Made by a program: the position numbers and the translations under genes. Below are positions 20,094 through 49,091 of a stretch of DNA of 64,000 bases, in pieces; the first letter of the stretch is position 1, and each line of letters begins with the position of its first letter. The stretch comes from Verrucomicrobiota bacterium. GTDB lineage: Bacteria; Verrucomicrobiota; Verrucomicrobiia; Verrucomicrobiales; V1-33. Under the pieces are notes generated by a model that saw only the letters and a list, made by a program, of their open reading frames with translations, searched no databases and had not been told where the DNA came from. The stretch lies in the NCBI GenBank assembly GCA_003402705.1, contig QQNF01000010.1, positions 1 to 64,000 of the forward strand, written 5' to 3'.

Positions 20094-21430
20094 ACCGCGA
20101 CGAACGCCGCCTCATCATCTACAGCTCGCTGCTCGTGCTCGCGCTGCTCGCGCTAGCCGGTGTGTTGTTGCGCAACTACGTCGCCAGAACCCTCGTCGCC
20201 GATACCAGCGTCCAGACCGCTTTCCTCGATCTGGCGCTGCGCGACCGCTCGCGATATCTGGCAGAGACGCTCCAGTCCGATCGCCAGCAGGGCCGCTGGC
20301 CGGAGAATCTCACGGACATCCTCACCCGCAATCACGCCGACTATAACCGCGACATCTTCATCCAGGTGTTTGAGGCGGACGGAAGACTGGTTGCCGCCTC
20401 GGGCAACACGCCATCCGGAACCACCCTCTCGCCAAAGGCACAACGTGTTGGCAGAATGGAACTGCACTGGCTCAGCGACGAAACAAAAGGAGCCGACGGG
20501 CGGACGCTGCGGTTGGTCACCTATCCGATCTACCTTGGTGCTCCGGATGATCCGAAGGCACAGGCGCTCGGCTTCGCACAGGCCGGCCTGACCCTTCCGG
20601 ATGCGGCCCGTGCCGTGTCCCTTTTCACATGGACCATGATCCCGGCCCTCGCAGGATTCGGCATCCTGTTTGTGATCGCCCTCCGCGCCGCCGTGGGTGC
20701 CGCAGGCCATCGCCTCCGCCGCGAGGCCGCCTCACTGAACGCATCGCAGCAGCGCTTCATCGGCGACGCCGCCCACGAACTCGGCACGCCGCTCGCCATC
20801 CTGCGGGGCGAGATGGACATCGCGCTCCGCCGCGAACGGAGCGCCGAAGATTACCGCGCGGCACTGGCCAGTTGCCGCGAAGAGATCGAGCGACTTTCGG
20901 GACTCTCGGAAAACCTCCTGACACTGGCCACCGCCGATGCCGGCCAGCAACTGGTGCAGCCCGCGCCATGCGATGCCGTTGAGATCGCACGGGCCGTGCA
21001 TCAGCGTTTCGCCCGCTACGCCGCCGGGAAGGATATCGCCTTCACCCTGACGGCTCCCGAATCCCTGCCGTGGTCGGCCGACGCCGTGGCCGTCGGACAA
21101 ATCCTCGGCAATCTCGTCAGCAACGCCCTCCGCCACACGCCCCCCGGCGAATACGTCGCGCTCACCGTCGCCCGCGAATCACACGACGTCGTGTTTCAAG
21201 TCACCGATACCGGCGAAGGCATTCCACCTGCGCATCTGCCTCGGATCTTCGAACGCTTTCACAGGGTGGACAAAGCCCGCTCGCGTGCCGGTGCCGGAGC
21301 CGGCCTCGGCTTAGCCATCGTCAAATCCTTCGTCGAGGCACACGGCGGCACCGTCACGGTCAAAAGCGATGTCGGCAAAGGCTCCACCTTCACCTGTCGT
21401 TTCCCCACCACTGTTTCCGGAGCTTCCTGA
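20090..21430 (+). CDS. Membrane sensor histidine kinase
   Basis: 446 aa. Membrane helix at residues 8-28 (LIIYSSLLVLALLALAGVLL), a periplasmic sensor region of about 150 residues, and a second helix near 180-205 (TMIPALAGFGILFVIALRAA). HisKA dimerisation domain follows, with the H-box FIGDAAHELGTPLAILRGEM. HATPase_c domain has N-box LGNLVSNALRHTPPGEYVAL, G1 VTDTGEGIPP, F-box FERFHRV and G2 GAGLGLAIVKSFVEAHGG. It autophosphorylates the H-box histidine and passes the phosphate to the adjacent regulator. The arrangement resembles CusS/QseC-type kinases without a recognisable HAMP. The ligand is unknown. Confidence 0.9.
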   Translation: MNRDERRLIIYSSLLVLALLALAGVLLRNYVARTLVADTSVQTAFLDLALRDRSRYLAETLQSDRQQGRWPENLTDILTRNHADYNRDIFIQVFEADGRLVAASGNTPSGTTLSPKAQRVGRMELHWLSDETKGADGRTLRLVTYPIYLGAPDDPKAQALGFAQAGLTLPDAARAVSLFTWTMIPALAGFGILFVIALRAAVGAAGHRLRREAASLNASQQRFIGDAAHELGTPLAILRGEMDIALRRERSAEDYRAALASCREEIERLSGLSENLLTLATADAGQQLVQPAPCDAVEIARAVHQRFARYAAGKDIAFTLTAPESLPWSADAVAVGQILGNLVSNALRHTPPGEYVALTVARESHDVVFQVTDTGEGIPPAHLPRIFERFHRVDKARSRAGAGAGLGLAIVKSFVEAHGGTVTVKSDVGKGSTFTCRFPTTVSGAS

Positions 21431-21499
21431 GGAAACGAAGAACTCACGGTCTCGAAAAAACGGGCTGGCAATGACGGCAGTGAGCAGCCGCCGCACTCA

Positions 21500-36595: not shown

Positions 36596-36681
36596 GCCGG
36601 AATGGTGGAATGGTAGACGCTACGGATTCAAAATCCGTTGCCCGCAAGGGCGTGTGGGTTCGAGTCCCACTTCCGGTACCA
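36596..36681 (+). tRNA. tRNA-Leu (anticodon CAA)
   Basis: 86 nt including an encoded CCA. Acceptor GCCGGAA pairs with TTCCGGT (one G-U), anticodon stem ACGGA/TCCGT holds the loop TTCAAAA with anticodon CAA at its centre, a class II variable arm GCCCGCAAGGGCG is present, and the T-arm is GTGGGTTCGAGTCCCAC. Its 3' 62 bp (with two bases past CCA) are repeated at 49030-49091, so it is the integration site of the island to its right. Confidence 0.95.
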
Positions 36682-36683
36682 CT
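36622..36683 (+). repeat. attL: 62-bp direct repeat, left end of the island
   Basis: From the anticodon stem of tRNA-Leu to two bases past its CCA. Identical over all 62 positions to 49030-49091; sequence diverges immediately on both sides. Because the repeat restores the tRNA 3' end, the tRNA stays functional after integration. Confidence 0.93.
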
Positions 36684-36952
36684 CTAAACCCCTGAAAATC
36701 AGGGGATTCCGACGGGAAAGCGAGCGAAAGACGGGTAGTCGGAAAACCCCGGGAAATGCCCATAAATGGCCATGAATGCAGGAAAAACCCGGAACAAACC
36801 CGGAACGGATTCGTGAGGTATTCCAGCCCCACCCTCCGCCGCCCGCGGATTGCTCCCCGGAACACCTCCGCCGTCGACCCTCACCTCCACAATCGCCCTT
36901 ATGCGGCCATTCCGAACTTGTCGATTACCGCTTAATCCGGCAGAATCAGGGG

Positions 36953-37111
36953 ATGAATCCGGACCACGAAGAATTCCCCGTTACCCTCGACGACGCCACA
37001 AAGGCAAAACTGGACGAAGTCGTTACAGCCACCGGGCTCCCCGCCGGGGAGGTTCTCCGCCTCGCGATTGAAACCGGGTTGCGTGTGATGGAGTCGGCGC
37101 GGCAGAATTGA
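36953..37111 (+). CDS. Small ribbon-helix-helix-like protein
   Basis: 52 aa from the ATG at 36953, preceded by AGGGG. Reads MNPDHEEFPVTLDDATKAKL, DEVVTATGLPAGEVLRLAIE and TGLRVMESARQN. A short strand followed by two helices is the pattern of ribbon-helix-helix DNA-binding proteins (compare the TATGLPAGEVLRLAI helix-turn). It probably acts as a small repressor or antitoxin-like regulator for the island. Decayed copies of the same ORF occur near 39187-39255 and 42396-42450, each before another cargo gene. The stop is 38 bp before the next gene. Confidence 0.6.
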   Translation: MNPDHEEFPVTLDDATKAKLDEVVTATGLPAGEVLRLAIETGLRVMESARQN

Positions 37112-37149
37112 ACGCTGACAGGGGGCGGTTCGGGGTGTATTCAGCCACC
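37112..37149 (+). promoter_or_regulatory. Repeated cargo-gene leader, copy 1
   Basis: GGCGGTTCGGGGTGTATTCA, ending with GCCACC before ATG. Related sequence occurs at 39263-39285 and 40779-40816 (GGTGGTTCGGGCGTGTATTC), the latter again directly before a start codon. It may carry the promoter or ribosome-binding region shared by cargo genes; which of these is not shown. Confidence 0.5.
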
Positions 37150-39018
37150 ATGAAACCGAAACAGAAAACGACCCTCGCCGCCGCCATGCGCCCCTCCGCC
37201 GCCTTTTTCATCGCCAGCCTCGTCTCACTCCTTCGGACTCACGCTGCCCCTGGTGACCTCGATCCCACCTTCGGATCGGGCGGAAAGGCACTCTTCTCCA
37301 TGAATGGTATTGGTGGCATGGCATCGCTGGTCCTTCAATCCGACGGCAAGATTATAGCTGCCGGAGGAGCTCGTCTTGTCAGATTCTTGCCGGATGGCAC
37401 CCTGGATCCAGATTTCAATTCCGGCGGCATCATTAGTCTGTCGTATCAGCACGTAGGGCCAGGATGGGCAGATTTGGCCGTCTTGGCCGACGGGAAGATC
37501 TTAGCTTGTGCGAACCGCACACTTAGGCGTTGGCATCCCGACGGAAGCCCAGACACATCATTCAATGAAACCGGCGTGATCGCTCTACCGGGCCAAGCAT
37601 TTGATCTGACACTAGACGATACACGGAGAATTCTCGTCGGCATGCACTCCGGTCTGGCACGCTACACTTCCAACGGAAGCCTCGACCTAAGCTTCGGACA
37701 GTCTGGGATCGCACTGTATCGACCGCCAAACTATCGATCCGTCACAAGCGTTGCCTCGTTTCCGGGCGGGGGCTCTCTCGTAATGGAAGATGAAAACGGC
37801 GGGTGGGGCTGGGGCGTGATCACCAAACTCAATTCCGCTGGCGTTGAGGACTCCGGATTTCCACTTATTCAGGTTTTAGTCGGCATGGGTCGCATGGAAA
37901 TCGAGGGACAACGTGCGATCTATTACTCCAATGGGATCGGGATCTCACTAATCGACTTTCAGGGCAATTTGGAATCTGTCTTGTCCGGACCGGACATACT
38001 CAGCGGCGTAAATGGTTTCACCAAGCAGCGCGATGGAAAGTTCATCATGGTCGGGTCAAGTCTAAATCCGATCACTGGTCGTTCTGATGTCTCTATCCGG
38101 AGAGTTCTCCCCGACGGCGCACGGGACACTTCATTCGCCAACGACGGAGTCAGGAACGTTGTTACTGGCAGCTTCCAATCCGGTGCCAATCGTGCCGTAG
38201 TCCAGCGCGACGGCAAGATCGTTGTCGCCGCCATCAGCGATACCAACGTCTTGGTTCTTCGACTCCTCGGCGACGACCCAGACATCACCGTTGAGTATCC
38301 GCTGGGAACCAGTCTGGCGGCGGTGCCCGTGCCAACCATCGATTTCGGCCCCGTCGTGGCAGGCCAGTCACAGACACGGAGCGTGTACCTGTCGAACCGG
38401 GGCCCTGCTGACCTTGAAGGCTTGAAGGTCGTGCGGGGAGCAGCCGGAACTCCTTCCGAATTCACCATTGCCTCCGAGATTCCCGCAACACTCGCGACTG
38501 GAGAATCCGTGCCACTCACTCTGGTCCTGACCCCGTCATCTCCCGGCAAAAAGACGGCTACCTTTGAAATTCAGAGCAACGATCCAGACGAGAGCCCATT
38601 CACGCTTTCCCTCACTGGCCGTCAGGCAACCGCCACCGATCTCTGGAGACAGACGCATTTCGGCAGCATGGACGAAACAGGAATCGCCGCGGACCAGAGC
38701 GACCCGGATGCCGACGGAATCGCCAACCTCGTCGAATTTGCCCTCGGAAGTCATCCGAAGGAGTCCACGCCGAATACCGGAACACTTGTCAGAAATGGCA
38801 GTACCCTTGAATTCACTTACTGGCGCTCTAAAGCCGCCCTCGGAGAAATCGCATTCGTCCGTGAATTCTCCCAGTCACTCGCCGAGGGATGGAGTCAGGT
38901 CGGCGGCATGGTGGAAACCATTGTCGAAGAAACCACCGAACTTCAAAGGGTGCGCGTGACCACCCCCGCAGGCACCGCCGGACGGCGCTTCGTCCGCCTC
39001 CGCGTCACCCGTCGATAA
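37150..39018 (+). CDS. Secreted delta-60-repeat beta-propeller protein with ASH-like domain
   Basis: 622 aa from the ATG at 37150, which opens a signal peptide (MKPKQKTTLAAAMRPSAAFF, then IASLVSLLRTHAAPGD). Residues 25-380 contain delta-60 repeats: LDPTFGSGGKALFSMNG, PDGTLDPDFNSGGI, PDGSPDTSFNETGV, SNGSLDLSFGQSGI. Residues about 390-490 form an ASPM-SPD-2-Hydin/choice-of-anchor-like Ig domain (VPTIDFGPVVAGQSQTRSVY, then FEIQSNDPDESPFTLSLTG). The end has DPDADGIANLVEFALGSHPK and a final beta module. Typical of Verrucomicrobiota exported proteins; function unknown. It is the first large cargo gene after the small RHH-like ORF. Confidence 0.75.
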   Translation: MKPKQKTTLAAAMRPSAAFFIASLVSLLRTHAAPGDLDPTFGSGGKALFSMNGIGGMASLVLQSDGKIIAAGGARLVRFLPDGTLDPDFNSGGIISLSYQHVGPGWADLAVLADGKILACANRTLRRWHPDGSPDTSFNETGVIALPGQAFDLTLDDTRRILVGMHSGLARYTSNGSLDLSFGQSGIALYRPPNYRSVTSVASFPGGGSLVMEDENGGWGWGVITKLNSAGVEDSGFPLIQVLVGMGRMEIEGQRAIYYSNGIGISLIDFQGNLESVLSGPDILSGVNGFTKQRDGKFIMVGSSLNPITGRSDVSIRRVLPDGARDTSFANDGVRNVVTGSFQSGANRAVVQRDGKIVVAAISDTNVLVLRLLGDDPDITVEYPLGTSLAAVPVPTIDFGPVVAGQSQTRSVYLSNRGPADLEGLKVVRGAAGTPSEFTIASEIPATLATGESVPLTLVLTPSSPGKKTATFEIQSNDPDESPFTLSLTGRQATATDLWRQTHFGSMDETGIAADQSDPDADGIANLVEFALGSHPKESTPNTGTLVRNGSTLEFTYWRSKAALGEIAFVREFSQSLAEGWSQVGGMVETIVEETTELQRVRVTTPAGTAGRRFVRLRVTRR

Positions 39019-39045
39019 CCGATGACGTAGGCGCAGGCTCTTCGG

Positions 39046-39300
39046 TTCCCCGCCCCGCCCCACCACCACCCCTCCCACCCCTAGGCCCCGGAATCAGGGA
39101 CAGCCTCCTTTATATGGACCCCTTCAAAAAATTGGGAGAATTCCGCGATGATTCCGGACCCCTTGAATAATTTGTCGCCTGCTTCGACGACGCCCCGAAG
39201 GAGCGGATTGAGGAAATGAGCGGGAGGTGGAGCGAGTCGGCGCGACAGAATGGAATCCCTCGACAACGGCGGTTCGGGTGTGTATCTCCCCGCAAAACGA
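39046..39300 (+). repeat. Degenerate repeat block: decayed small ORF plus leader, copy 2
   Basis: Starts with a roughly 50-bp sequence also found at 42264-42314 (CCGCCCCGCCCCACCACCAC and CCCCTAGGCCCCGGAAT). At 39187-39255 it reads DDAPKERIEEMSG and WSESARQN, a worn copy of the small ORF at 36953 (DDATKAKLDE, MESARQN). The leader GGCGGTTCGGGTGTGTAT follows at 39263. The order, small ORF then leader then cargo gene, matches copy 1. Confidence 0.6.
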
Positions 39301-39390
39301 AACCCGCACCGCTTCAATCGCCCGCATCGGGAACCCCGATTAGCTTCAATCCGCAGGCCCGCCTCTCACCAAGAATAAATCCAGACGAGA

Positions 39391-40218
39391 ATGAACCAGT
39401 ATTACCACGCGGACGAGTCCGGAAATTCCGTCGGCCCGGTGTCCTCGGATGAGTTGATGCGATTGCACAAGGACGGCGTGATCAGGTCAACGACGCTTAT
39501 CACGGAAGCGAACCAAGAAACTTGGATTCCGCTCTACAAATTCGGCTTCACAAGCGGACCTTCGGCTGACACCAGCGCCCTCAAGGAGTGCCCGCTGTGC
39601 GGTGAATCGATTGGGTCCGGCATCTTCGGATCGAATTCCCTGATATCGCCAATCGTTGCCGCACTCATTAAAGAATACTGCCCGGAACAGTCGGTCCGGC
39701 GGTGCGAAAAGTGCGCGAGCGGGATTCTTGGGAATGCCAAGGAGCGTTTCACTGCCGAGCGAAATGGATTGGTTCGCGTTATTCAGACCGAACTTCAAGC
39801 GATTCCAATTCTCTCACTCCAAGCTCCTCTTCATTGGGACTACAGGGTTTGCGGGCTTGTGACAGGCCAGTCTGTGATCGGCACTGGTCCGCTATCGGAA
39901 TTCTCATCCGCTATCACCGATCTCTTCGGCTCTCAATCCAACGCATATCGCAGAAAGATAAAGGAAGGTGAGACCCATTGCGCGACCATGCTGAGGAACG
40001 AAGCGTTTGAGATTGGGGGAAACGCTGTGCTTGCGGCAGACGTTGACTATGCCGAGTTGGGCGGCGCAAAGGGGATGCTCATGGTCTGCATGACCGGAAC
40101 GGCAGTCCTGCTTGGCAACGCTGAGATTCTTGGTGAGAACACGGTGCAATCACTCACCCGACTTGGGGAATGCAAGGCCCGCCTCGACTACATATCGAGC
40201 TTGGCGGTAGAATCATAG
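39391..40218 (+). CDS. GYF_2 domain protein with a YbjQ-like C-terminal domain
   Basis: 275 aa. Residues 1-55 match GYF_2/DUF4339 (MNQYYHADESGNSVGPVSSD, ELMRLHKDGVI, then TWIPLYKFGF), a small domain that often starts bacterial membrane-associated proteins. Next is a zinc-binding-like segment with CPLCGES and CEKCASG. Residues about 155-255 resemble YbjQ/UPF0145 (CGLVTGQSVIGTGPLSEFSS, GNAVLAADVDYAELGG, GMLMVCMTGTAVLLG). YbjQ-like proteins form pentamers of unclear function. No membrane helix is seen. It is one of two GYF_2-type proteins in the island. Confidence 0.7.
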   Translation: MNQYYHADESGNSVGPVSSDELMRLHKDGVIRSTTLITEANQETWIPLYKFGFTSGPSADTSALKECPLCGESIGSGIFGSNSLISPIVAALIKEYCPEQSVRRCEKCASGILGNAKERFTAERNGLVRVIQTELQAIPILSLQAPLHWDYRVCGLVTGQSVIGTGPLSEFSSAITDLFGSQSNAYRRKIKEGETHCATMLRNEAFEIGGNAVLAADVDYAELGGAKGMLMVCMTGTAVLLGNAEILGENTVQSLTRLGECKARLDYISSLAVES

Positions 40219-40267
40219 TGCCACCGGCCCTCCTCCATGGGAAGTGAGTAGGCATCCGCCGTGAAAT

Positions 40268-40687
40268 CTACGCGATACGGCTAAGGAGTCGCCAAGTCTG
40301 GGTAGCGGGGTCGTGCAAGTAGTGATCCGTTGGGACGAGTTCCCCCGTATTCAGAAACGCCAGAACATCAGCAAGGGGCCAGGTCCCGATAATTTCGCCA
40401 TCCCGCCGGATTGTCAGTTGATCCGGTACATCGGCAAGGCTGCTGGCGGGATTTACGGGGGCGGCGGGGCGGGCGGCGCGATGGGTGGCGTGGAGTGCCG
40501 CGGTGGCGGCGCGTTCCGCAGAAGCGCGATTACCCAACATCACCGCAATGATGACTCCCAGCGGACCGAATAGCAGCCCAACGACAAATCCGTTCCCCCG
40601 TTGCTCAGGCCCTGCCAAGTTGCAGCCAATGAGCCCGCAAAGTATCCAGACGAGAGCAACACCATGCATGATTTCCAAAAGCTGCAC
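40268..40687 (-). CDS. Small membrane protein with a C-terminal GYF_2-like domain
   Basis: 139 aa. Two hydrophobic segments at the N-terminus (MHGVALVWILCGLIGCNLAG and GNGFVVGLLFGPLGVIIAVM), a proline/alanine linker, then DQLTIRRDGEIIGTWPLADV, LAFLNTGELVPTDHYLHDPA and TQTWRLL. The end matches the GYF_2 pattern with W and a late W-x-x-L. The start could be the ATG seven codons in. It is convergent with the GYF_2/YbjQ-like gene, with 49 bp between stops, and may act with it at the membrane; that is inference. Confidence 0.6.
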   Translation of the reverse strand: MQLLEIMHGVALVWILCGLIGCNLAGPEQRGNGFVVGLLFGPLGVIIAVMLGNRASAERAATAALHATHRAARPAAPVNPASSLADVPDQLTIRRDGEIIGTWPLADVLAFLNTGELVPTDHYLHDPATQTWRLLSRIA

Positions 40688-40778
40688 GATACTGAGCGAA
40701 CGGCGTATGCGTCAAGGCGTGACCGCAGCGGAGAGCGCGGGCAATTGCGGATCTGGTCAGCGGAGGGAAAAGTGGATC

Positions 40779-40816
40779 AGTGACAACGGTGGTTCGGGCG
40801 TGTATTCAGCGCCATC
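40779..40816 (+). promoter_or_regulatory. Repeated cargo-gene leader, copy 3
   Basis: GGTGGTTCGGGCGTGTATTC, then AGCGCCATC directly before the ATG at 40817. It matches the leader at 37112 and has the same spacing to the start codon to within a few bases. Confidence 0.5.
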
Positions 40817-41374
40817 ATGAATCCGAAAACCATCGCCGCCGCCCTCGCCCTCCTCTCAATCGGCTCCGCCCCCGCAAGTGAAGCCGTGACGCTCACTTGG
40901 AAGAAGGACGCGCCAGAGAACGCGCAAACGGCAGTCCTCACGCTGGCAGCCGGGGAGAGCTTGAAAGCAGTTTGGGGCGGAGAGCGAGTAAATGGAGGCG
41001 ATCAGGTTCAGAATCATATCCGGGTGAGGCTCTCAGTTACGAAAGGCTCCGAAACGTGGCTCGCGAACCTAGTGGACGCCCATAACTTCGGATCGGGAAT
41101 CGCTGTCCTGAACTTTCAAATAACGGGACCGGCAGTCATCCGGCTTGTTCCCAACGATCCGACGGGAACCACCGTCACATCCGTTGCCACTTTCGACGTC
41201 ACCCGCGTCGGCACCGCAAGCCCTCCCGCGGAAGTCCCACAGGAGGCTGGCAGCGACTTCGACGTCATCCTCGAACAGAGCAGCGATCTTGTGAACTGGA
41301 CGCCCGCGAACCCCGGCACCTACTCCGGCACCGAAACGAAGCGATTCTTCCGCACCCGGATCGTGAAGAAGTGA
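40817..41374 (+). CDS. Small secreted protein with terminal S-x-D-L-x-x-W module
   Basis: 185 aa with a signal peptide (MNPKTIAAALALLSIGSAPA). A beta-rich domain follows (SEAVTLTWKKDAPENAQTAV, LTLAAGESLKAVWGGERVNG, FQITGPAVIRLVPNDPTGTT). The C-terminus reads FDVILEQSSDLVNWTPANPG and KRFFRTRIVKK, the same short module found at the ends of the large secreted proteins outside the island. Relics of homologues lie at 43430-43573 (C-terminal half) and 44528-44735 (N-terminal half). Function unknown. Confidence 0.7.
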   Translation: MNPKTIAAALALLSIGSAPASEAVTLTWKKDAPENAQTAVLTLAAGESLKAVWGGERVNGGDQVQNHIRVRLSVTKGSETWLANLVDAHNFGSGIAVLNFQITGPAVIRLVPNDPTGTTVTSVATFDVTRVGTASPPAEVPQEAGSDFDVILEQSSDLVNWTPANPGTYSGTETKRFFRTRIVKK

Positions 41375-41583
41375 GCGGATGCCGATGGGGCCATCCCCGG
41401 CCGCCCCGGAACAATTGCACCCCCGGCAGCAGTTGCCCCCAAGCACGTGACGCCTGGCCCTGTCGTCGCGCTCCGGCCCGCCTTCGTCCCGCTTCGTCAC
41501 CCCAGAAGGAGATGCACACACCCCAATCTGAGCAGCGCTCACGACATCTCCTAGCAGGGATCGACTCGCCGCCTCTCTTAATC

Positions 41584-42039
41584 TCAATTCTTGGCGGCTT
41601 TGAACATGGCATCAACATAATCCTGCGGGGAGAACCCATCCGGAAGCAAGCCACATTTCTCTAATCGGGTCGCGTGCCACAGTGCCCTCTTCCGACCAAA
41701 CGATTCCTCTGGAGTCCCTGAAAACTGTTTGGCGATATCAACTATGTATCCTTCGGACTTGCTTCTGAAGTCCTCCGCCAGCGCCTCGATGAGCGGCCCG
41801 GATGCAGATGAGCCTTTCAGAGATTCAATTACGCTCTTCAGTTCGGATTGCTCGCGCCTCGCCAACGCTTCCGATTCCATGAACTGAACTTGAAATTCAT
41901 CGCTCCTCTCTCGCTCTTGGGTGAATCGGCCAAGGGCCTCTGACTCGAATCGGCGTGACTCTCGCAGCTGCCAGACATTGAGTGCGATGCTGCCACAAAC
42001 CAGCATCCAAAGAATTCCGTTTGATTGCCCAGATTTCAT
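41584..42039 (-). CDS. Membrane-anchored coiled-coil protein of unknown function
   Basis: 151 aa. A hydrophobic anchor near the N-terminus (GILWMLVCGSIALNVWQLRE) is followed by a long charged helix (SRRFESEALGRFTQERERSD to REQSELKSVIESLKG) and a C-terminal globular piece ending GFSPQDYVDAMFKAAKN. It is likely held in the inner membrane with a coiled-coil facing the periplasm or cytoplasm. No family is recognised. Confidence 0.6.
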   Translation of the reverse strand: MKSGQSNGILWMLVCGSIALNVWQLRESRRFESEALGRFTQERERSDEFQVQFMESEALARREQSELKSVIESLKGSSASGPLIEALAEDFRSKSEGYIVDIAKQFSGTPEESFGRKRALWHATRLEKCGLLPDGFSPQDYVDAMFKAAKN

Positions 42040-42263
42040 ATTTTCTTAGTTCCTCGCCACGAAGCAATTGGCATTAGCACCCTGACCCACCCCGCTGCCA
42101 GGCCGAAATCCCGCACCGTTCACCTCAGAGTGCCGCCAATGCCGAACGGCGATAGAAACTGCCTGCTTCATCATCAGCAGGATCTTGCATTCTCTAGGCA
42201 CTTTGTCCAGCAGGCCCTGAGGATCGAGTCGCGGCAATCCCTTGCCGAGGCAGCTTCCAGTCA

Positions 42264-42460
42264 TCCCCCTCCCGCCCCGCCCCACCACCACCCCTCCCTC
42301 CCCTAGGCCCCGGAATGCGGTATCTCAGTAATTATACGGCCCCTTAAAAAATTCTCAGAAACTGGAGATGAATTAGGATTCTCCCGGAGAATTCCAATCT
42401 CTCCCGACGGAGTTACGAAGGCGAAACTGGACGAACCGCCATCATCTGGAGCGGTTGGCA
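42264..42460 (+). repeat. Degenerate repeat block: decayed small ORF, copy 3
   Basis: Begins with the same roughly 50-bp sequence as 39046 (CCCCGCCCCACCACCACCCC, CCCCTAGGCCCCGGAAT), followed by CGGCCCCTTAAAAAATT, related to GGACCCCTTCAAAAAATT at 39117. Near 42396-42430 it reads ISPDGVTKAKLDE, a remnant of the small ORF at 36953 (LDDATKAKLDE). It precedes the secreted coiled-coil gene at 42528. Confidence 0.55.
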
Positions 42461-42527
42461 TAAGCACGGACCCGCATTACGGGTTTGCGTAATTTGAGAA
42501 AGCATAACGGGACGTAGGGTCTGATTA

Positions 42528-43226
42528 ATGAAGAAGGTTCTTTTTTCAACTCTCTGTTGCGTGGTCCCTTTGAGCAGCCTCGCCCAATCCCAATCTAAAG
42601 ACAATCGGGTAGGGGTAGAACAGATGGAATCTCTTCGACGGATGCAAGAAGAACGTATGCGGTCTGAGGAGGAGTTTCGTCTACGGGTGGAAGCAGACCG
42701 TAGGCAGGTGGAAGCAGAAAATCAGCGCCGCGACACTGAAGCGCGCCTAGATGCCATTGAGCGCCAGCAGCAAAAGATTCGCCAAATGCAGGAAGATTAC
42801 GAAAAGAAGCAGGCCCGGCGGGGGTTGGACGGCGAAGAGCTGGATGAGATAATTAGGCGTAACGCCGTCCCACCTATCACTGTTCCGCGGACAGTTCAGC
42901 CAAGACCCGCCCGCGTTCCGTCAGCGCCCCGCACGGCAGCAGAACGCGCATCGGAACTAGAGAAGGCCATGCGGGAAAGCCTGGCAGCTATGGCGGAGGC
43001 CCAGAAAACTCAGTATCTGACGGCTGAGGACGTTGGGGTCCTCAAAATGATGCTGAAAGACATAGACAGTATCGCCATGATTCTTTCCCCGAAGAATCCA
43101 TTTCAGGAAACCGCCGAGAGTACAGCAATGGCGCTGTCGAATCGGGGGCTCCTTCGGTATCGCCCGGAAGTGTCCAGAATTTATGAATTAGAGAAGGCGC
43201 GCTGGACTGCCGCTGGAAAACGGTAG
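42528..43226 (+). CDS. Secreted coiled-coil protein of unknown function
   Basis: 232 aa with a signal peptide (MKKVLFSTLCCVVPLSSLAQ). Residues 30-100 form a highly charged helix rich in R, E and Q (MQEERMRSEEEFRLRVEADR, QVEAENQRRDTEARLDAIER) predicted to be coiled coil. A proline-rich linker (PPITVPRTVQPRPARVPSAP) and a second helical part (ERASELEKAMRESLAAMAEA) follow. It could be a periplasmic scaffold or adaptor. No homologue is recognised. Confidence 0.65.
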   Translation: MKKVLFSTLCCVVPLSSLAQSQSKDNRVGVEQMESLRRMQEERMRSEEEFRLRVEADRRQVEAENQRRDTEARLDAIERQQQKIRQMQEDYEKKQARRGLDGEELDEIIRRNAVPPITVPRTVQPRPARVPSAPRTAAERASELEKAMRESLAAMAEAQKTQYLTAEDVGVLKMMLKDIDSIAMILSPKNPFQETAESTAMALSNRGLLRYRPEVSRIYELEKARWTAAGKR

Positions 43227-43429
43227 GGCCAAGAACCGACGATCAGCGCAGCGTTTCCCGCCCCCATTTTGGTCTCCTTTAGCCTCCTGTGGCTTCGTTT
43301 CTCCTTTCGAGCCTTAGGGGAAAAAAGTGGCAAACAAGCGCAATACCCCCGGAATTTCGTATTTTCTGTTCGCAATCTCTCCGCAGTCGGAAAAGCCGTC
43401 ACGGACAAGCGCCGCCCCCGTAACTATCC

Positions 43430-43573
43430 GTCCCGCATTCCCTTCTTTCACCCAATCGGATGCGGCTTTTATCAAGGAGAGTTCCGCCGACCTGATCACT
43501 TCGACGGCGGCGAATCCCGGAGATTATTCAGGAATCACGGCGAAGAGGTTCTCTCGGAATTTCTCCCATCGCG
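43430..43573 (+). pseudogene. C-terminal relic of a homologue of the 185-aa secreted protein
   Basis: Codons here read FTQSDAAFIKESSADLITST and AANPGDYSGITAKRFSRNFS. This aligns with EAGSDFDVILEQSSDLVNWT and PANPGTYSGTETKRFFRTRI at the end of the protein encoded at 40817-41374. No upstream domain is attached. Confidence 0.55.
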
Positions 43574-43591
43574 CTGGCATACCCCCATCAT

Positions 43592-44386
43592 TTACCGGGC
43601 GAACACAACAATGGAACAAGCCAGAAGGCCCAGCAGACATATCCAATGAACAGCTATAGCAAACGAAACACTGCTGTCATCACGATCACCGGTGGCTCGC
43701 CCCTGAAGCGCCATTGATATCGCCCTTCTGGAACACCACGTTCCAATAACTAGACCTATTATCCAGCCCTTGAGCGAGTCTGCGCCTTGGATTAGCGCGA
43801 TTGCACCCATTCCGTAAGAGAGTCCTGGGAGGTAATGAGCGATCTGCATAGCCGTTCCCGGCGCGATACGCTGCTCAAAATCGATGCTATAAATCGGATG
43901 ATCATCAGGCTGCCCCCCTTGGATCAGATTGTCTTTGTGATTAGTTTTGATGGAATTGCTACTTATCGACGGAAAGATTGTCTTATCGGTGATCAATTGA
44001 GCAAGAGAATTTTTTGAGGAGTCACCGTCTCCTCTAGCAAACATAAGCAATGCCATATCGGATGCCCTGCTGATTTTTATTGCACTCGGGTCTTTATTAG
44101 CTAAAAGCCTGTAGGCAACCAGCTTGTCGTTTAGTGTTATGTTAATACCATAAATTGAATTGCAGATTCCATTTGAATTGAATAATTCTTTCATGACAAA
44201 TTTTTGAACTTCCACCTCTGACATGTTCTCGCTAAGAGAACAAAACGCTGCGCTCTCAAGAAATACAAAATAAATAACCCTCTCCCTCAATCCAATTCCC
44301 GTCAGTTTAGTCGGGATCAATGCGTTTATTATTTGCAGGTTGGAAAAAGCGAATAGTACTTTGCTAAGCTTGTTTATATCGGCCAT
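43592..44386 (-). CDS. AT-rich gene for an unknown protein with C-terminal membrane helices
   Basis: 264 aa (MADINKLSKVLFAFSNLQII start). The N-terminal 175 residues are soluble, with SLSENMSEVEVQKFVMKELF and GINITLNDKLVAYRLLANKD. Hydrophobic segments follow near 185-215 (YLPGLSYGMGAIALIQGADS, LKGWIIGLVIGTWCSRR) and at the end (FAIAVHWICLLGLLACSIVV). Base composition is clearly more AT-rich than any other gene in the window, with AAA, AAT and ATT codons frequent, which points to recent transfer from another source. It has relics of one secreted-protein family on both sides. No function is recognised; as island cargo an accessory or defence role is possible but not supported by motifs. Confidence 0.65.
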   Translation of the reverse strand: MADINKLSKVLFAFSNLQIINALIPTKLTGIGLRERVIYFVFLESAAFCSLSENMSEVEVQKFVMKELFNSNGICNSIYGINITLNDKLVAYRLLANKDPSAIKISRASDMALLMFARGDGDSSKNSLAQLITDKTIFPSISSNSIKTNHKDNLIQGGQPDDHPIYSIDFEQRIAPGTAMQIAHYLPGLSYGMGAIALIQGADSLKGWIIGLVIGTWCSRRAISMALQGRATGDRDDSSVSFAIAVHWICLLGLLACSIVVFAR

Positions 44387-44527
44387 TGTTCAAGAATTTA
44401 AAGGTTATTGATCGAATTCCACGAGTGGAAAATGAATCCTCCGTGGGTTTCCTCGGCGCTTTCGTGTCTACCGGGCATCTGAAATTTGTACAACGTTTTT
44501 TTCGCTTCGTTTGATCTTGCCCGCACC

Positions 44528-44735
44528 ATGAGAATCAACGCATCTGCCTTTGCCGCTGCCCTTGTGCTCTTGGCCATTCCCGCTGCCGTCGCTTGACGCT
44601 GACGTGGAAGCGGACAGCCAGCAATGCCGACAATCCAAGACCGTGAGGATTGAACTGGGAGTCGGGGAGAGCATCAAAGCACTCTGGGGAGTGGGGGGAG
44701 TATCGGGAGAGCCCGAAGCGGGCAGAGCCCCCCGG
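44528..44735 (+). pseudogene. N-terminal relic of a homologue of the 185-aa secreted protein
   Basis: Starts with an intact signal peptide (MRINASAFAAALVLLAIPAA, VA) and then hits TGA. Shifting one base gives LTLTWKRTASNADNPRP, and a further shift gives RIELGVGESIKALWG. These match AVTLTWKKDAPENA and TLAAGESLKAVWGG in the protein at 40817. At least two frameshifts disable it. Confidence 0.65.
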
Positions 44736-44802
44736 TGAGGAGGTAACTGGCAAGGATTGCCGCGGCAGTAATCAGAATTGAGGTGATGACGGGTTTCAGC
44801 AT
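44674..44802 (-). CDS. Possible 42-aa membrane peptide
   Basis: The ATG at 44802 starts MLKPVITSILITAAAILASY, LLTGGLCPL and RALPILPPLPRVL before TGA. One membrane helix with a GGLCPL end is typical of small membrane proteins, but the last about 14 codons overlap the antisense relic at 44528, so the 3' end may be chimeric. 44803-45061 contains nothing recognised. Confidence 0.35.
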   Translation of the reverse strand: MLKPVITSILITAAAILASYLLTGGLCPLRALPILPPLPRVL

Positions 44803-45061
44803 GGGATTGTTTCGTTGCCGCATGTTCGCGGTTCGCGCATTTCCTTGGGATGGGGCGGGATGTGGTTGGTCACAGCCGATTTAAGGCCGGGGTCTGTCGA
44901 GGTGTCCAACTGACGGGGTCGGTGTCCGTGCTGCACGCTGCGGGTGATTCTGTGCGATTGGCAGGGTGCTGGCGGAGAGATGAGGAGGGAGAGCAGGGGT
45001 GGGAAGGTGTTGTCACCTCAATCCTTCCCCTGATCACCCCTCTCCGGGTCGGGAACGATCT

Positions 45062-45270
45062 TGGAAACGAATGCGTTTTTTGAGCCGTCCGTTTCCGATA
45101 TGCTATGGGTATCGTTTCCGGCTCGTTTCCATTCCCGTTTCCACTTCTGAGTCGGATTTGAACCGGGAAACGCCTGAATGTTCAGGCTCGTTTCCATTTT
45201 GTTTCCACCGGGGTGTGTGGAAACAATCCCCGTTTCCCGTTTCCCGCCTACAGGGAGGAAACAGGAAACG
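45062..45270. repeat. Iteron array, candidate replication origin
   Basis: About 13 copies of GTTTCC or its complement GGAAAC in about 205 bp, mostly extended as CGTTTCC(A/C/G). Forward copies are near 45089, 45113, 45124, 45136, 45189, 45200, 45231 and 45238; reverse copies near 45062, 45165, 45219, 45257 and 45264. Spacing is irregular, from 7 to about 50 bp. The array starts right after the stop of the RepA-like ATPase gene. Short repeats beside a primase/helicase module are the pattern of iteron-controlled plasmid origins. No separate AT-rich melting box is evident. Confidence 0.7.
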
Positions 45271-45273
45271 TTT

Positions 45274-46299
45274 TCACGATCCGGGGATGGCGTACTTCTG
45301 TCCCGACTTCTCCAACCTCCCCGTCTTCATCGCTCGCCGTGCCACTTTGGAAACCTGCCCCTTGGAACGTCCCATCATCTCAGCGATCTCTCCGCACTGA
45401 TTGAAGCCATCCCGGACCAGTTCAATCAGCAGAAGCATGTCGTCACCACGCTCGCACTCCACTCCCTCTGCCGTGACCTTCCAGTCCAGCGGGGGAGCAT
45501 CGTGCGCCTTGCAGTTCCGGCACTTCGTGAACTCAGAGGTGAATACTGCGCCTTCGTGAGTGGCGTCGTGACTGGATGTCAGCCGGATCACCCACTGCAT
45601 TTCGTCCTCTCTCTTGCTTGCTCCTCGAGCCCCTCCGCCGCCTCGGCCTTCATGGTGAATCAGGATCACCGTCACCCTTGCTCGCCGGAACCGCCGAAGC
45701 CATGAGTTCATCTTCTCCCATTCGTCGTTGTCGTTCTCCTTTACGCCACGGCACAGGCAACTGAGGTTGTCCAGTATCACCACCTGAACTCCCGCCTCCA
45801 CGACTTGCGCCAAAAGCGACTCCTGTTGCTCCGCGTCCGCGAGGTTGAAGCAGTACCCCTCCGGGAGTGTTTCGTGGTGAAGGAATCCTGGAACCTGCCC
45901 ACCAACCAGTGCGCTCCTGATGGCGTTGGTGCGCTCTTTCGAGTCGGCAAGATTCATCTCGCCGTCAACATACAGAACCTTTTGCGGCCCCAGTTCTCCG
46001 GCATCCCATTCTCCCAGCGGAGCCCCGTCGGATATGGCCTGAGCGATCAGCATGGACATCCATGTCTTGCCGACGCCACGCGCCGCATAAATCATCCCTA
46101 GATCTCCTTGCTTCATCCACTGCCCCATGAGCCGAGGCCGGGGAGTAATCTGAATGGCGGTGAGGTTGCACCCGGCCGCCATCGCTGAGGCGAATGCAGA
46201 AGGCCAGTCTTTCCTCGCCGCGGTGTTTGTTGTGCTGGTGATCGGACTGGCGTCGGGGACTTCGTCGTCATCTGGAATTTCTATCGTCGTGGGTCTCAT
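45274..46299 (-). CDS. RepA-like (RecA-fold, AAA_25) replicative ATPase
   Basis: 341 aa. Walker A is MIYAARGVGKTWMSMLIAQA (about residue 73), Walker B lies in VQVVILDNLSCLCRGVKEND, and VTVILIHHEGRGGGGARGAS is the following motif with the conserved HH-x-G-RG. This matches the hexameric RepA/DnaB-related helicases of RSF1010-type plasmids and similar ATPases in integrative elements. The C-terminal 60 residues hold a helix-turn-helix-like segment (FNQCGEIAEMMGRSKGQVSK) which could bind the iterons just downstream. It overlaps the primase gene by 32 bp, so the two are translationally coupled. Confidence 0.8.
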   Translation of the reverse strand: MRPTTIEIPDDDEVPDASPITSTTNTAARKDWPSAFASAMAAGCNLTAIQITPRPRLMGQWMKQGDLGMIYAARGVGKTWMSMLIAQAISDGAPLGEWDAGELGPQKVLYVDGEMNLADSKERTNAIRSALVGGQVPGFLHHETLPEGYCFNLADAEQQESLLAQVVEAGVQVVILDNLSCLCRGVKENDNDEWEKMNSWLRRFRRARVTVILIHHEGRGGGGARGASKREDEMQWVIRLTSSHDATHEGAVFTSEFTKCRNCKAHDAPPLDWKVTAEGVECERGDDMLLLIELVRDGFNQCGEIAEMMGRSKGQVSKVARRAMKTGRLEKSGQKYAIPGS

Positions 46300-47299
46300 G
46301 GGGTGTGCGTTGGGTTGGGGTTGGGGTTGGGTTTGTGCTTGTTCTCATTTTTGTGTTTCGGTAAAATTCGGTAAGGTAGTCCGGGCATCCGGGGCTGCGC
46401 TTTAGTTCATCGCCAAGGTCGCCTTCGACGAATTGGCGTATGCGTGCGGAACCACCTGCGGTTTTTATAGCTCTACGCCATCCCTTGGCGGCTTTCAGTC
46501 CGGGTTCGCCAGCATCGGCAAGGATCATTACATGACGGGTTGATAGGTAGGTGGCGTTCTTGTTGGAAAGGACGCTGGCTTTGCTGTAGGCGGCGATAAC
46601 TCCGACACCTTCCCAGCATTCACCTGATTCGTCCTCTGCACGCAGCACGGCCTCCACGGCTTCAAGAAGGCCGACTAGGCCCTCGGTGATAATGACGACC
46701 TTCGTGTCCTTGTTGATGCCGCATCTGATACCGAAGCCCTTAACGGGGAAATAGGTGTCAACCTTGGACTCGCCACCGTCCCTCAGCTGCCACTTCCCGC
46801 CGTCCAGTCGCTTCGCCTGGAAGATGCCGGGGCCGTGCAGGAAATAGGCTGGAAGCTCGCGGTTTGTGCCGACGGACAGAACACCGTTGGCAACCGCCAG
46901 AGAAACGGCGGCGGGGCTGATGCCGCGAACCCGCGCAATCTGTGCAATCTCCGTATCGTTGGGGATGAACGTCTCCGGTCGGAGCCGTGGCGACTTTGGC
47001 GGGGGCGGTGCAGGCGTAGGGCGGTTGATCCTTTCCCTGCTTTCCTCCCCCAGTAGGAAACCCCGTTCGCCGGGGAAGCGATTCACGCCAGACAGTTTCA
47101 CCCTCACGCTATTGTCACTCCAAAGTGGGGCGGATCTTTGGTTGTATTCGGCAATCAAGGGGAAGGCTTCATCCGGTGGGATGTCGAAACCTGCGACAGT
47201 GGAAAAGCAGGCTTTGTGAAGCGCATTCTCTCCTCCCGCTCCTTGAATTGACGGGGGGAGTTTAGCCAAATAGCGCCTGGCGCGTTCAATAACGTCCAT
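46268..47299 (-). CDS. Primase-like protein with Toprim domain
   Basis: 343 aa. The N-terminus (YLAKLPPSIQGAGGENALHK, ACFSTVAGFDIPPDEAFPLI) resembles the primase C-terminal/PriCT-like helical domain. The second half is a Toprim fold: VVIITEGLVGLLEAVEAVLR supplies the conserved E and HVMILADAGEPGLKAAKGWR the DxGxxG-type acidic motif. Toprim primases make RNA primers for DNA replication. No N-terminal zinc finger is visible, so loading may depend on the partner ATPase. The C-terminus ends in a short PTPTPTQ repeat encoded by GGGTTG-type DNA. First gene of the replication pair, transcribed leftward. Confidence 0.7.
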   Translation of the reverse strand: MDVIERARRYLAKLPPSIQGAGGENALHKACFSTVAGFDIPPDEAFPLIAEYNQRSAPLWSDNSVRVKLSGVNRFPGERGFLLGEESRERINRPTPAPPPPKSPRLRPETFIPNDTEIAQIARVRGISPAAVSLAVANGVLSVGTNRELPAYFLHGPGIFQAKRLDGGKWQLRDGGESKVDTYFPVKGFGIRCGINKDTKVVIITEGLVGLLEAVEAVLRAEDESGECWEGVGVIAAYSKASVLSNKNATYLSTRHVMILADAGEPGLKAAKGWRRAIKTAGGSARIRQFVEGDLGDELKRSPGCPDYLTEFYRNTKMRTSTNPTPTPTQRTPHETHDDRNSR

Positions 47300-47392
47300 A
47301 GGATTCGCTTGAATCCGGCCTTTCGGTAGGCTACCCTCAATCAGTCGCCCAGACTGCCCCCCCCGCGCTGCTACCGAAGCGGCCGGGGGTTT

Positions 47393-47578
47393 TTACTTGC
47401 TGGCGAATTCAAGAAGGTCCTGATACCTAATCCGCACGCATCGCCGCCCCATGCGCTTCGGTCGAATTGTTCCGTCGGCAATCCATTTGTCTATAGTTCT
47501 CAAATTTACCGAGAGGAGCTTTGCCGCCTCCGGTCTTGTTATCCAAATGGGGTTGAGCGAATGGTCATGGTTAATCAT
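47393..47578 (-). CDS. AlpA/MerR-like excisionase
   Basis: 61 aa with one helix-turn-helix: PIWITRPEAAKLLSVNLRTI, DKWIADGTIRPKRMGRRCVR, IRYQDLLEF. This is the HTH_17/excisionase (Xis, AlpA) pattern, where the wing GRRCVRI contacts DNA. Such proteins steer the integrase toward excision or regulate it. It lies between primase and integrase on the same strand. The 176 bp upstream towards the integrase are AT-rich. Confidence 0.85.
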   Translation of the reverse strand: MINHDHSLNPIWITRPEAAKLLSVNLRTIDKWIADGTIRPKRMGRRCVRIRYQDLLEFASK

Positions 47579-47754
47579 CTCTAAGCATCAGCGAGAGCCG
47601 AATGTATGCAACCCGTTCCTCTCATTTCGGCCCAAATGAGCTATTTCGCGTCCATGCCAGTTATTGGAATCCGCTCATTTCCAGAGATTTACAAACCAAA
47701 AAAAACTTTCTGTTAGTGTTACGCGAATGCGTATCTCGTGTGGGGTTTATATGA

Positions 47755-48930
47755 TTAAATAGATTTTCGCGGCAGTAATTCCGAGGGTTGCAGCTTCTCC
47801 GGCATGATGTTGAACCACGCACGCGCATTCTCCCGGGAGGTAGTATTTTGATAGTGAGAGTGGACGACGCCGGGAGAATTCCCCATCTCCTCCGCTACTT
47901 GCGCCGCGTTCTTCGTGACGGCTAAGCGATACGTTCCGAACGAATGTCGCAAAAGGTTTTCGCTCCAATCAATTCCAGCGGCGGCGGAGGCGGCTTCCAA
48001 GTGACGGCGATATGCACTCAGGGAGATTTCCAGACTTGCGCCGGGGAGTCCACGGCACGTCCTCAGCCATGCCACGGCATTTTTCGGGATGGGTGGATTG
48101 CGGCGGCGGTTGGTCTTTGTGACTGCGCTGGTGAGTTCAACGAATGGCTCCTTGCCTTCCAGTTTGATCTCTCCCCACGTCAGACGCTCGCTTTCGGCCC
48201 TGCGGACCCCGCAGAACGCTTGCAGCACCAGCAACGGCAGAATGGCAGGGTCGGCGACGGCGAGAAGCGCACTTGCCTGTTGCGGCGTCAGGATGGCAGG
48301 GTCGGAGGGCGCGGCCTTCGGTGCCTTCAATTTCGACGCCGGGTTTGCCGGAATCTGCCCGCGATCAAGGGCGAGGGAGAAAACGCTACCAAGGGCGAGG
48401 GAGTAGTTTTCCCACGTCTTCGGGGCGACACCCAAGCCGTGAAGCCAGTGCGAAAGGTCATCCACGGTGACGGCAGACAGCGGGCGCATTCCGAAAGCCG
48501 TGGCGAAACGCGCCAGACGGCTTTTCAGGTCAGCTTGATGCCGCGGGGAGAGCTTGCGGCGCTCCGCATCTTCCAGCCGTTGCCGGATTGCTTCGGTGAC
48601 GGTGATGGTGGATTGCGCGGCGCTGAATGCCTCGATGGCGGATTCGACGACGGCGGACAGGTCAGGCGCTCCCGGCGTCGCCCTTTGCCACTCCCGAAAC
48701 CGGATCAATGCAGCCCTTTCGGATGAGGAGACGCTGGCATGGGCCGCACCATGAGCCGTCAATTCGCGGCGCTTCTCCGCCGCCAGCGCTTCGGCTTCTC
48801 GCTTCGACTTCGGCCATGCCGTTTTCGTGACGGCCTTCCCGGTCGCGTCCCGCTCGCTCCACCGCACCTCCCAGACAGGGAATTGATAGCTTTTCTTGCC
48901 GTTCGGGTGGTGGTGGATGCTGATTTTCAT
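47755..48930 (-). CDS. Tyrosine recombinase (island integrase)
   Basis: 391 aa from the ATG at 48930 (MKISIHHHPNGKKSYQFPVW), preceded by GGGGAG; the longer upstream frame runs into attR. Core-binding domain around residues 125-225 (FATAFGMRPLSAVTVDDLSH, ENYSLALGSVFSLALDRGQI). Catalytic domain: Arg I in CGVRRAESERLTWGEI, NLLRHSFGTYRLAVTKNAAQ with Arg II, MGNSPGVVHSHYQNTTSREN with the nucleophile Y. Two histidines of the classical set are N here (NLLR rather than HxLR, MGNS rather than LGHS). The same changes are familiar in a planctomycete/verrucomicrobial integrase subgroup. The gene starts 100 bp from attR and directs integration at tRNA-Leu. Confidence 0.9.
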   Translation of the reverse strand: MKISIHHHPNGKKSYQFPVWEVRWSERDATGKAVTKTAWPKSKREAEALAAEKRRELTAHGAAHASVSSSERAALIRFREWQRATPGAPDLSAVVESAIEAFSAAQSTITVTEAIRQRLEDAERRKLSPRHQADLKSRLARFATAFGMRPLSAVTVDDLSHWLHGLGVAPKTWENYSLALGSVFSLALDRGQIPANPASKLKAPKAAPSDPAILTPQQASALLAVADPAILPLLVLQAFCGVRRAESERLTWGEIKLEGKEPFVELTSAVTKTNRRRNPPIPKNAVAWLRTCRGLPGASLEISLSAYRRHLEAASAAAGIDWSENLLRHSFGTYRLAVTKNAAQVAEEMGNSPGVVHSHYQNTTSRENARAWFNIMPEKLQPSELLPRKSI

Positions 48931-49029
48931 CTCCCCGCTTCTATATGCAGCCATAGACAGCAGGCAAACGCAAAAGTCGGAACACGCACGGAATGAAGCC
49001 GTGAGGGCGCTGATTTTCAACGTGTCACC

Positions 49030-49091
49030 ACGGATTCAAAATCCGTTGCCCGCAAGGGCGTGTGGGTTCGAGTCCCACTTCCGGTACCACT
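49030..49091 (+). repeat. attR: 62-bp direct repeat, right end of the island
   Basis: Perfect repeat of 36622-36683. It carries the anticodon stem-loop, variable arm, T-arm and acceptor 3' strand of tRNA-Leu, but lacks the 5' acceptor and D-arm, so it is not a tRNA gene. Sequence beyond 49091 leads to der. Confidence 0.93.

Follow-up and report, generated by a model that had tools for sequence, protein, structure and literature searches.

A hexamer array past a RepA-like ATPase gene as the probable replication origin of an integrative island

Introduction

What purpose is served by a dense cluster of short repeats lying directly beyond the ATPase gene of a genomic island, and which protein reads it? 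The question is raised by positions 45063-45269 of the window, the whole stretch of 64,000 nucleotides analysed here, which belongs to the draft genome of a Verrucomicrobiota bacterium. A sequence-only reading of this DNA had taken the cluster for the replication origin of the island, bound either by the RepA-like ATPase encoded beside it or by an excisionase. Our analysis leads us to regard the array as quite probably the origin from which an integrative element replicates, with the helicase encoded just before it as the reader. Both the origin and its binding by the ATPase have good comparative support, drawn from the sequences of homologous loci.

The island and its putative replication genes

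The host draft genome (4.08 Mb in 128 contigs, 75% complete) carries a 12.4-kb island at 36622-49091, bounded by perfect 62-bp direct repeats at a tRNA-Leu gene. The left repeat (36622..36683, plus strand) overlaps the 3' portion of the tRNA-Leu(CAA) gene, which is intact (36596-36681), and the second copy at the right end (49030..49091, plus strand) is 100% identical to it. The genes of the right end all lie on the minus strand. They encode, in order, the tyrosine integrase P0003 (47755..49020), a 61-aa excisionase-family HTH protein (47393..47578; TIGR01764 above cut-off), the Toprim_3-like protein P0002 (46268..47299) and the 341-aa ATPase P0001 (45274..46299), after which come the hexamers. 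P0002 is a candidate primase, its Toprim_3 score of 18.6 bits lying below the Pfam cut-off of 27.2 bits. The Pfam scan took in part of the island ORFs; an RHH-like protein is also encoded by the island, again with a Pfam match below cut-off.

A dense hexamer array past the ATPase gene

In the orientation of the ATPase gene (minus strand), the array at 45063..45269 contains exactly 13 exact copies of the hexamer, 5 as GTTTCC and 8 as GGAAAC, and the 7-mer CGTTTCC accounts for 10 of the 13. Its first copy lies 4 nt past the ATPase stop codon. The sequence-only reading, which had counted about 13 copies in both orientations within about 205 bp and had seen the array as bounded by that stop codon, was accurate on all these points. 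It had also described the spacing as irregular, which holds for nine of the copies (45063..45224, minus strand) and fails for the four nearest the gene. These four form a palindrome at 45232..45269 (minus strand), GTTTCC-n-GTTTCC-12 nt-GGAAAC-n-GGAAAC, with gaps of 1-12-1 and the 12-nt spacer TCCCTGTAGGCG, which we propose as the core of the origin. Classical iteron plasmid origins consist of same-direction repeats of about 17-22 bp. The words found here are 6-7 bp long and lie on both strands, so that the array, as had been remarked before, does not belong to that type.

The density is far above chance, as the same reading had claimed. With the array excluded, the rest of the 64 kb holds 40 copies of the hexamer (0.63 per kb), and a 400-kb sample of the same genome, made up of 20 stretches of 20 kb, holds 178 (0.445 per kb) with at most 3 in any 208 bp; nowhere in this sample does the hexamer reach a density equal to that of the array. 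For a given 208-bp stretch, the Poisson probability of at least 13 copies is about 5e-24. When the 64 kb were scanned for hexamer density in 208-bp segments at 26-bp steps, the only other hexamer as dense was GCCGCC (12 copies per 208 bp, 10063-10427). In the draft genome (4.08 Mb, 75% complete), the close pair GGAAACNGGAAAC is present at two places only, both of them within the array. With a GC content of 0.507 against 0.56-0.58 for the island, the array is only mildly AT-rich, and the palindrome spacer is not AT-rich.

Far from the island, three GTTTCC words lie within 38 bp at 21399-21436; they are probably a chance occurrence, since a search of the host draft genome for a second copy of the ATPase found none.

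As single-stranded DNA, the palindrome at 45232-45269 is predicted to fold into a hairpin (-10.9 kcal/mol, z -4.4), and its minus-strand version beats 200 of 200 shuffled sequences. Given this capacity to form a hairpin and a start only 4 nt past the stop codon, the palindrome could be conceived as the transcription terminator of the ATPase gene, with the hexamers as its by-product. However, the scan for intrinsic terminators, defined by a GC-rich hairpin followed by a T run, called none at this position, and a terminator would leave 13 copies across 207 bp unexplained as well as the co-variation of the hexamer with the DNA-binding helix described below. We consider a terminator extremely improbable. 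The Rfam scan of the palindrome called no family.

A RepA-like ATPase with a predicted winged helix

Pfam assigns P0001 to AAA_25 (E 5.8e-28) and finds neither DUF927 nor Primase_Cterm in it at E 0.1. The only sequence match in the PDB at E 0.01 is RepA of RSF1010 (E 3.2e-4). The AlphaFold2 model built from 59 sequences (mean pLDDT 89.1) consists of a RecA-type core, at about residues 35-283, and a C-terminal winged helix, in keeping with the helix-turn-helix-like end that had been noticed in the translation. The predicted winged helix comprises helices 287-296, 302-309 and 313-325 and a wing at 330-337; in the model, the recognition helix is 313-325 and is immediately preceded by S312.

When the Foldseek matches are ordered by E-value, chains of RecA and KaiC come first and RepA follows within the top rows. 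After realignment with VIA-align, RSF1010 RepA is the best by Z (22.8, residues 35-283) among 999 chains from the top 1000 of Foldseek, and among the matches listed it also leads by TM-score to the target. By sequence and by fold, the core of P0001 is of the type of the RecA-fold helicase RepA. Because the alignment spans residues 35-283, the winged helix lies outside the part aligned with RepA.

Arrays past homologous ATPase genes

Matches to P0001, some of them weak, occur in 33 of the 386 genomes available for the order, the host genome among them, and in 15 of 50 genera; the three other genomes of the host genus gave no match. The 26 nearest loci (L003-L028) encode proteins that are mostly 36-44% identical to P0001. 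In the 400 bp past the ATPase stop codon, 17 of these 26 loci carry at least 5 GTTTCC words; in 4 others GTTGCC takes its place, with 6 copies or more, and the last 5 (L003, L004, L010, L024 and L025) lack both arrays. A search based on the alignment added loci from Verrucomicrobiota, from Proteobacteria, including Ottowia, Ideonella, Rhodoferax, Halomonas and Mesorhizobium, and from viral contigs of IMG/VR. The alignment was required for this step, as a scan with P0001 as a single protein produced no match in the genome contigs or in the viral contigs. Likewise, a search of 72,556 plasmids and 50,697 phage records with P0001 returned no match. The protein of L067 matched a single distant phage record and a single fragment, the latter located on a Nitrobacter plasmid, and that of L140 matched 105 distant phage records, none of them reaching 80% coverage. 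Three of these phages were examined. Past the corresponding genes of phage BFK20 and of one Vibrio phage, no hexamer exceeds 3 copies; past that of the uncultured phage L231, GGGACA is present 8 times.

The repeated word varies with lineage, with GTTGCG, CATTTCA, TCTTGCA, GTAAAC, GGGACA, TGAATCA and GGGTAC among the variants. Recurrence was accordingly measured for any hexamer in the 400 bp past each ATPase stop codon, in 113 of 123 members (P0001 included) whose sequence reached the C-terminal domain, the others having been dropped for a short sequence past the stop codon or for being too similar; 2131 windows taken from the members' own loci served as controls. At least 8 copies of one hexamer follow the gene in 62 of the 113 nonredundant members versus 9 of the 2131 control windows, and at least 6 copies in 86 of 113 versus 86 of 2131. 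Where at least 7 copies are present (72 members), the median distance from the stop codon is 9 nt for the first copy and 197 nt for the last copy within 450 bp. No hexamer reaches 6 copies in the 400 bp past the stop codon of the remaining 27 members, some of which are remote and some close (L010, L046); two of these, L033 and L120, still have 7 copies of the shorter GTTTC or GTTGC. The absence of such arrays next to homologous ATPases, which would have spoken against the sequence-only reading, is thus not what the family displays.

In some divergent members, among them L134, L135 and L140, the arrays contain very AT-rich tracts, with the lowest GC content over 60 bp at 0.07-0.12, which look like melting sites. 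GC skew was dropped as a sign of an origin: across the arrays of 24 loci it shows no change, and hence no origin signal.

Primase-type Pfam domains above cut-off were found in 7 of 10 ORFs chosen for scanning that neighbour the ATPase or are fused to it. In the others, L101 gave a BT4734-like N-terminal domain, L032 gave nothing, and the ORF chosen for L067 proved to be an integrase. In L101, L122, L147, L169 and L170, the ATPase forms the C-terminal half of a single ORF of 620-690 aa, which begins with an N-terminal Toprim domain in L122 and L147 and with the BT4734-like domain in L101.

Iteron clusters of plasmids serve as partition sites too. By this analogy, the array might be a partition (centromere-like) or incompatibility site of the excised element. 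Against such a role stand the RepA/RecA-like nature of the ATPase, by both Pfam and fold, and its frequent adjacency or fusion to primase domains in the ORFs scanned, and we hold partition to be very improbable. Both properties are in line with the origin that we favour.

A palindrome with a CTA/TAG core

The arrangement of the four gene-proximal copies is not peculiar to this island. Two iterons, 11-17 nt and an inverted iteron pair occur in 43 of the 86 arrays with at least 6 copies, against an expectation of 7.9 on average and 16 at most when orientations are shuffled (200 shuffles). CTA or TAG is present in 41 of the 43 palindrome spacers (letter-shuffled mean 11.2, maximum 22, 1000 shuffles), and CCTA or TAGG in 33 of 43. 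Palindrome and core hold in Verrucomicrobiota and in Proteobacteria despite their different iterons. The palindrome recalls SV40 T antigen. In the portion of PMC7581432 at hand, that protein is mentioned for origin recognition only.

The palindrome also leads back to the gene. Searched as bare DNA in the 386 genomes of the order, the exact GTTTCC palindrome yields 6 sites in 6 genomes, and all 6 directly follow ATPase genes matching P0001; the backward control yields 0. Specificity is lower in viral contigs. There, the GTTGCG palindrome lies beside a family ATPase (E 1e-3) in 2 of 4 contigs (L242, which is L117, and L243), and the GTTTCC palindrome in 0 of 2 at the same threshold. One of the latter two, L246 (IMG/VR), has its GTTTCC palindromes inside ORFs, at 11490-11529 and 12503-12542, where both encode FPVS...ETGNT-like peptides; one of these ORFs has, by eye, a Walker-A-like GKTW stretch, with no family match at E 1e-3. 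In the other, L247, the palindrome is located between two larger ORFs. The GTTGCG palindromes of L244 (11754-11792) and L245 (4341-4379) have a CTACTAGGG-like centre and lie beside a 107-aa ORF, with no family ATPase match in the stretch examined; either another protein reads the same DNA element in these contigs, or the repeat is there by chance.

Three further arrangements were noted by eye or in passing. The uncultured phage L231, in which the gene is annotated as repA, shows the same palindrome arrangement by eye. On the conjugative plasmid 2 of Nitrobacter hamburgensis X14 (L232), a short leftover of the ATPase C-terminus is followed by a full GTCCC palindrome with a CCCTAGGG centre, also by eye. 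Finally, L126 and L027 have two palindromes per array past the ATPase stop codon, roughly 200-320 bp apart.

The hexamer changes with the recognition helix

If the ATPase reads the array, the repeated word may be expected to follow its DNA-reading domain. In 69 of the 113 members (at least 7 copies, an aligned helix and a filled core), motif similarity correlates with that of the recognition helix when the ATPase core is held constant (partial Mantel r 0.49, permutation p 0.0005); the core, with the helix held constant, reaches 0.15, and the remaining HTH helices reach 0.10. The best single-column predictor of the motif, column 325 (r 0.38), corresponds to G314 in the recognition helix, although columns of the ATPase core also rank high, column 149 being third.

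Between the two commonest words, GTTTC and GTTGC, a local rule can be drawn. Asn or His occupies the position of S312 in 15 of 17 members with GTTGC arrays versus 0 of 39 with GTTTC arrays (Fisher 8e-12, uncorrected for kinship). L120 (Ser, GTTGC) breaks the rule, L010 has no array although its His predicts GTTGC, and L048 (His; 5 GTTGC and 4 GTTTC copies) does not reach the threshold for classification. In a quick tree based on the ATPase core, which took in 55 of the 56 classified arrays, the motif class changes 4 times on well supported branches; 3 of these changes are matched by Asn/His, and the fourth (L093 versus L063) by Ser to Arg at the S312 position. The sign test for these 4 independent changes gives p 0.25; with only four pairs, no sign test can reach significance. 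Among new viral members with a repeated hexamer, GTTGC is found in 3 of 6 with Asn/His versus 1 of 15 others (p 0.053), according to hand tallies at an overlap filter of 0.5, where a Jaccard value of 0.6 had been set in advance; the tallies include the AT-only or low-complexity rows L261, L265, L287 and L322. L248 shares its contig with L243, already seen by its DNA palindrome, and was for that reason removed from the blind test, which then stands at 2 of 5 (p 0.14).

As a general rule, a code made up of this one residue was rejected. When all of the family is compared, identity at the S312 column comes only 118th among 312 columns in predicting a shared motif (r 0.04, by a measure that scores Asn and His as different), and the rule misses the new members L283, L322, L323 and L292. 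By these comparisons, it is the recognition helix as a whole that carries the signal, the one-residue rule being local, and the data suggest that word and protein change together among relatives.

Of the two binders that the sequence-only reading had left side by side, the ATPase is favoured over the excisionase, since the array motif follows the ATPase recognition helix across the family. The hexamers could nevertheless be read by the co-travelling excisionase or Toprim protein, in which case the link with the recognition helix would reflect shared ancestry. The tree has only four independent motif changes and some core columns of the ATPase predict the motif too, which speaks for such a reader; the recognition helix nonetheless correlates more strongly with the motif than does the ATPase core or do the neighbouring helices of its domain, and we judge this alternative quite improbable.

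Binding and purpose are separate matters. The co-variation indicates likely binding only, and the array could be an operator or silencing site at which the ATPase or another HTH protein regulates transcription and not replication; the island does encode excisionase-like and RHH-like proteins, the match of the latter being below the Pfam cut-off. Yet the array comes after the last gene of the replication module and not before the module, and the palindrome with its CTA/TAG core, together with the AT-rich tracts of some members, is origin-like. The promoter scan of 44300-47400 returned 0 sites, which says little, as this sigma-70-only scan found none upstream of the genes either. On balance, an operator seems unlikely, and a replication origin read by the ATPase is the interpretation that we retain.

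Comparison with known systems

The closest published layouts are consistent with an origin at this place, as the sequence-only reading had proposed, and together with the gene content of the island they are the basis on which we support that proposal. In the pri-rep-ori modules of SaPI/PICI elements (SaPIbov1 and SaPI5 Rep, E. coli PICI EcCICFT073), according to the portions of PMC7581432 and PMC6092414 at hand, an iteron origin lies directly past the helicase gene, the initiator helicase has a C-terminal origin-reading domain (the candidate for this role here being the predicted winged helix), the primase adjoins the helicase or is fused to it, and the element is integrative. The same portion of PMC6092414 reports that a rep-ori segment of the E. 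coli PICI supports plasmid replication. The island described here likewise has short iterons immediately 3' of the putative initiator gene.

The differences are as instructive. As far as the excerpt of PMC7581432 goes, the Rep of SaPIbov1 has its relatives among DUF927 proteins and that of SaPI5 among Primase_Cterm proteins; the helicase here is AAA_25/RSF1010-RepA-like and has neither of these domains by Pfam, which excludes a SaPI-type Rep. In the SaPI/PICI origins covered by the available part of PMC6092414, two iteron sets flank an AT-rich region; here, the core would be a four-iteron palindrome around CTA/TAG. That part also describes the integrase gene of Gram-positive PICIs as transcribed opposite to xis-pri-rep and Gram-negative PICIs as organised differently. 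Since the integrase, excisionase, Toprim-like and ATPase genes of this island are all on the minus strand, a Gram-positive PICI is excluded by gene direction. PICMI satellites were not taken as the closest system either, because their primase is defined by DUF3987/DUF5906 in the part of PMC10803314 available to us.

Other replication systems share single traits. Cch2 of SCCmec binds a repeat-bearing sequence past its own gene, which is also a preferred priming start of its partner primase (PMC7581432, in part). The layout is the same, an initiator helicase with a DNA-reading C-terminus and iterons directly past the gene, but Cch2 belongs to the Primase_Cterm type of helicase, its iterons number three and are 5 nt long, and its partner is a polymerase of the A family. 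RSF1010 shares the RepA helicase core, by PDB sequence match and as best fold by Z; there, however, a separate protein, RepC, recognises the iterons (PMC4234260, in part), whereas here the DNA-reading domain would be joined to the helicase. ORF904 of pRN1 resembles P0001 in its C-terminal winged helix, and its stem-loop origin lies past its gene, as the putative origin does here; the pRN1 system differs in lacking iterons and in primer synthesis from GTG (same portion of PMC4234260). Helicases of the RepA type with a C-terminal winged helix were known before, in the PrimQH/all3500 fusions to archaeo-eukaryotic-type primases (PMC5862659, in part), where the winged helix was suggested to take part in origin recognition; the portion of that paper at hand describes no cognate origin sequence or recognition rule. 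Among the full-text literature matches listed, judged by titles and the starts of abstracts and with subscription journals and preprints outside this set, none describes cognate arrays or a recognition rule.

Proposed mechanism and implications

After excision of the island, ATPase molecules would attach to the hexamers by means of their C-terminal winged helix. The two iteron pairs of the palindrome would set two such assemblies face to face across about 12 bp, the strands would open at the spacer with its CTA/TAG core and take up two rings, and primers would be supplied by the Toprim-type primase encoded next to the ATPase. That the island replicates at all, and that it does so by way of binding, melting, ring loading and priming at the core, is what we infer from the arrangement of genes and repeats. 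A primer-start role of CTA/TAG is plausible, because pRN1 has a stem-loop origin and its primase starts at GTG (available part of PMC4234260).

More tentatively, and with somewhat more doubt than confidence, we envisage that initiator helicases with the RepA/RecA fold that load themselves form a large class, so far unrecognised, among islands and phages. Their origins would be two-layered, with element-specific hexamers readable from the recognition helix and a CTA/TAG core common across bacterial phyla, set in a palindrome of doubly inverted iterons, as a shared site of melting or primer start. If this were true, the origins of many unannotated elements could be predicted from protein sequence.

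For the RepA-like ATPases of islands and phages, the present reading would provide a testable job and would indicate where the origins of such elements lie. Protein-DNA co-variation is offered as an approach to origin specificity, and the constancy of the CTA/TAG core while the iterons change may be explored alongside it. Natural motif switches between close relatives (for example L063/L093 and L027/L023) are ready test pairs.

Other features of the island

In the cargo of the island at 37108-40218, Pfam identifies DUF5122 beta-propeller and HYDIN-like Ig domains on a protein of 636 aa, and GYF_2 and YbjQ domains on one of 275 aa. Repeated blocks flank the cargo genes, at 39049-39094 and 42271-42316 and also at 36968-37112, 39165-39255 and 42405-42435; one of 46 nt is repeated at 98% identity and shorter ones at 68-91%, a pattern that would fit duplication of cargo units or their insertion in succession. 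Moreover, a relic of the 3' end of a second ATPase gene, devoid of the recognition-helix stretch, lies on the minus strand at 43201-43560, about 2.0 kb from the intact ATPase, and is followed by an apparent decayed palindrome with CCCCTAAGG; the island may formerly have carried two replication modules.
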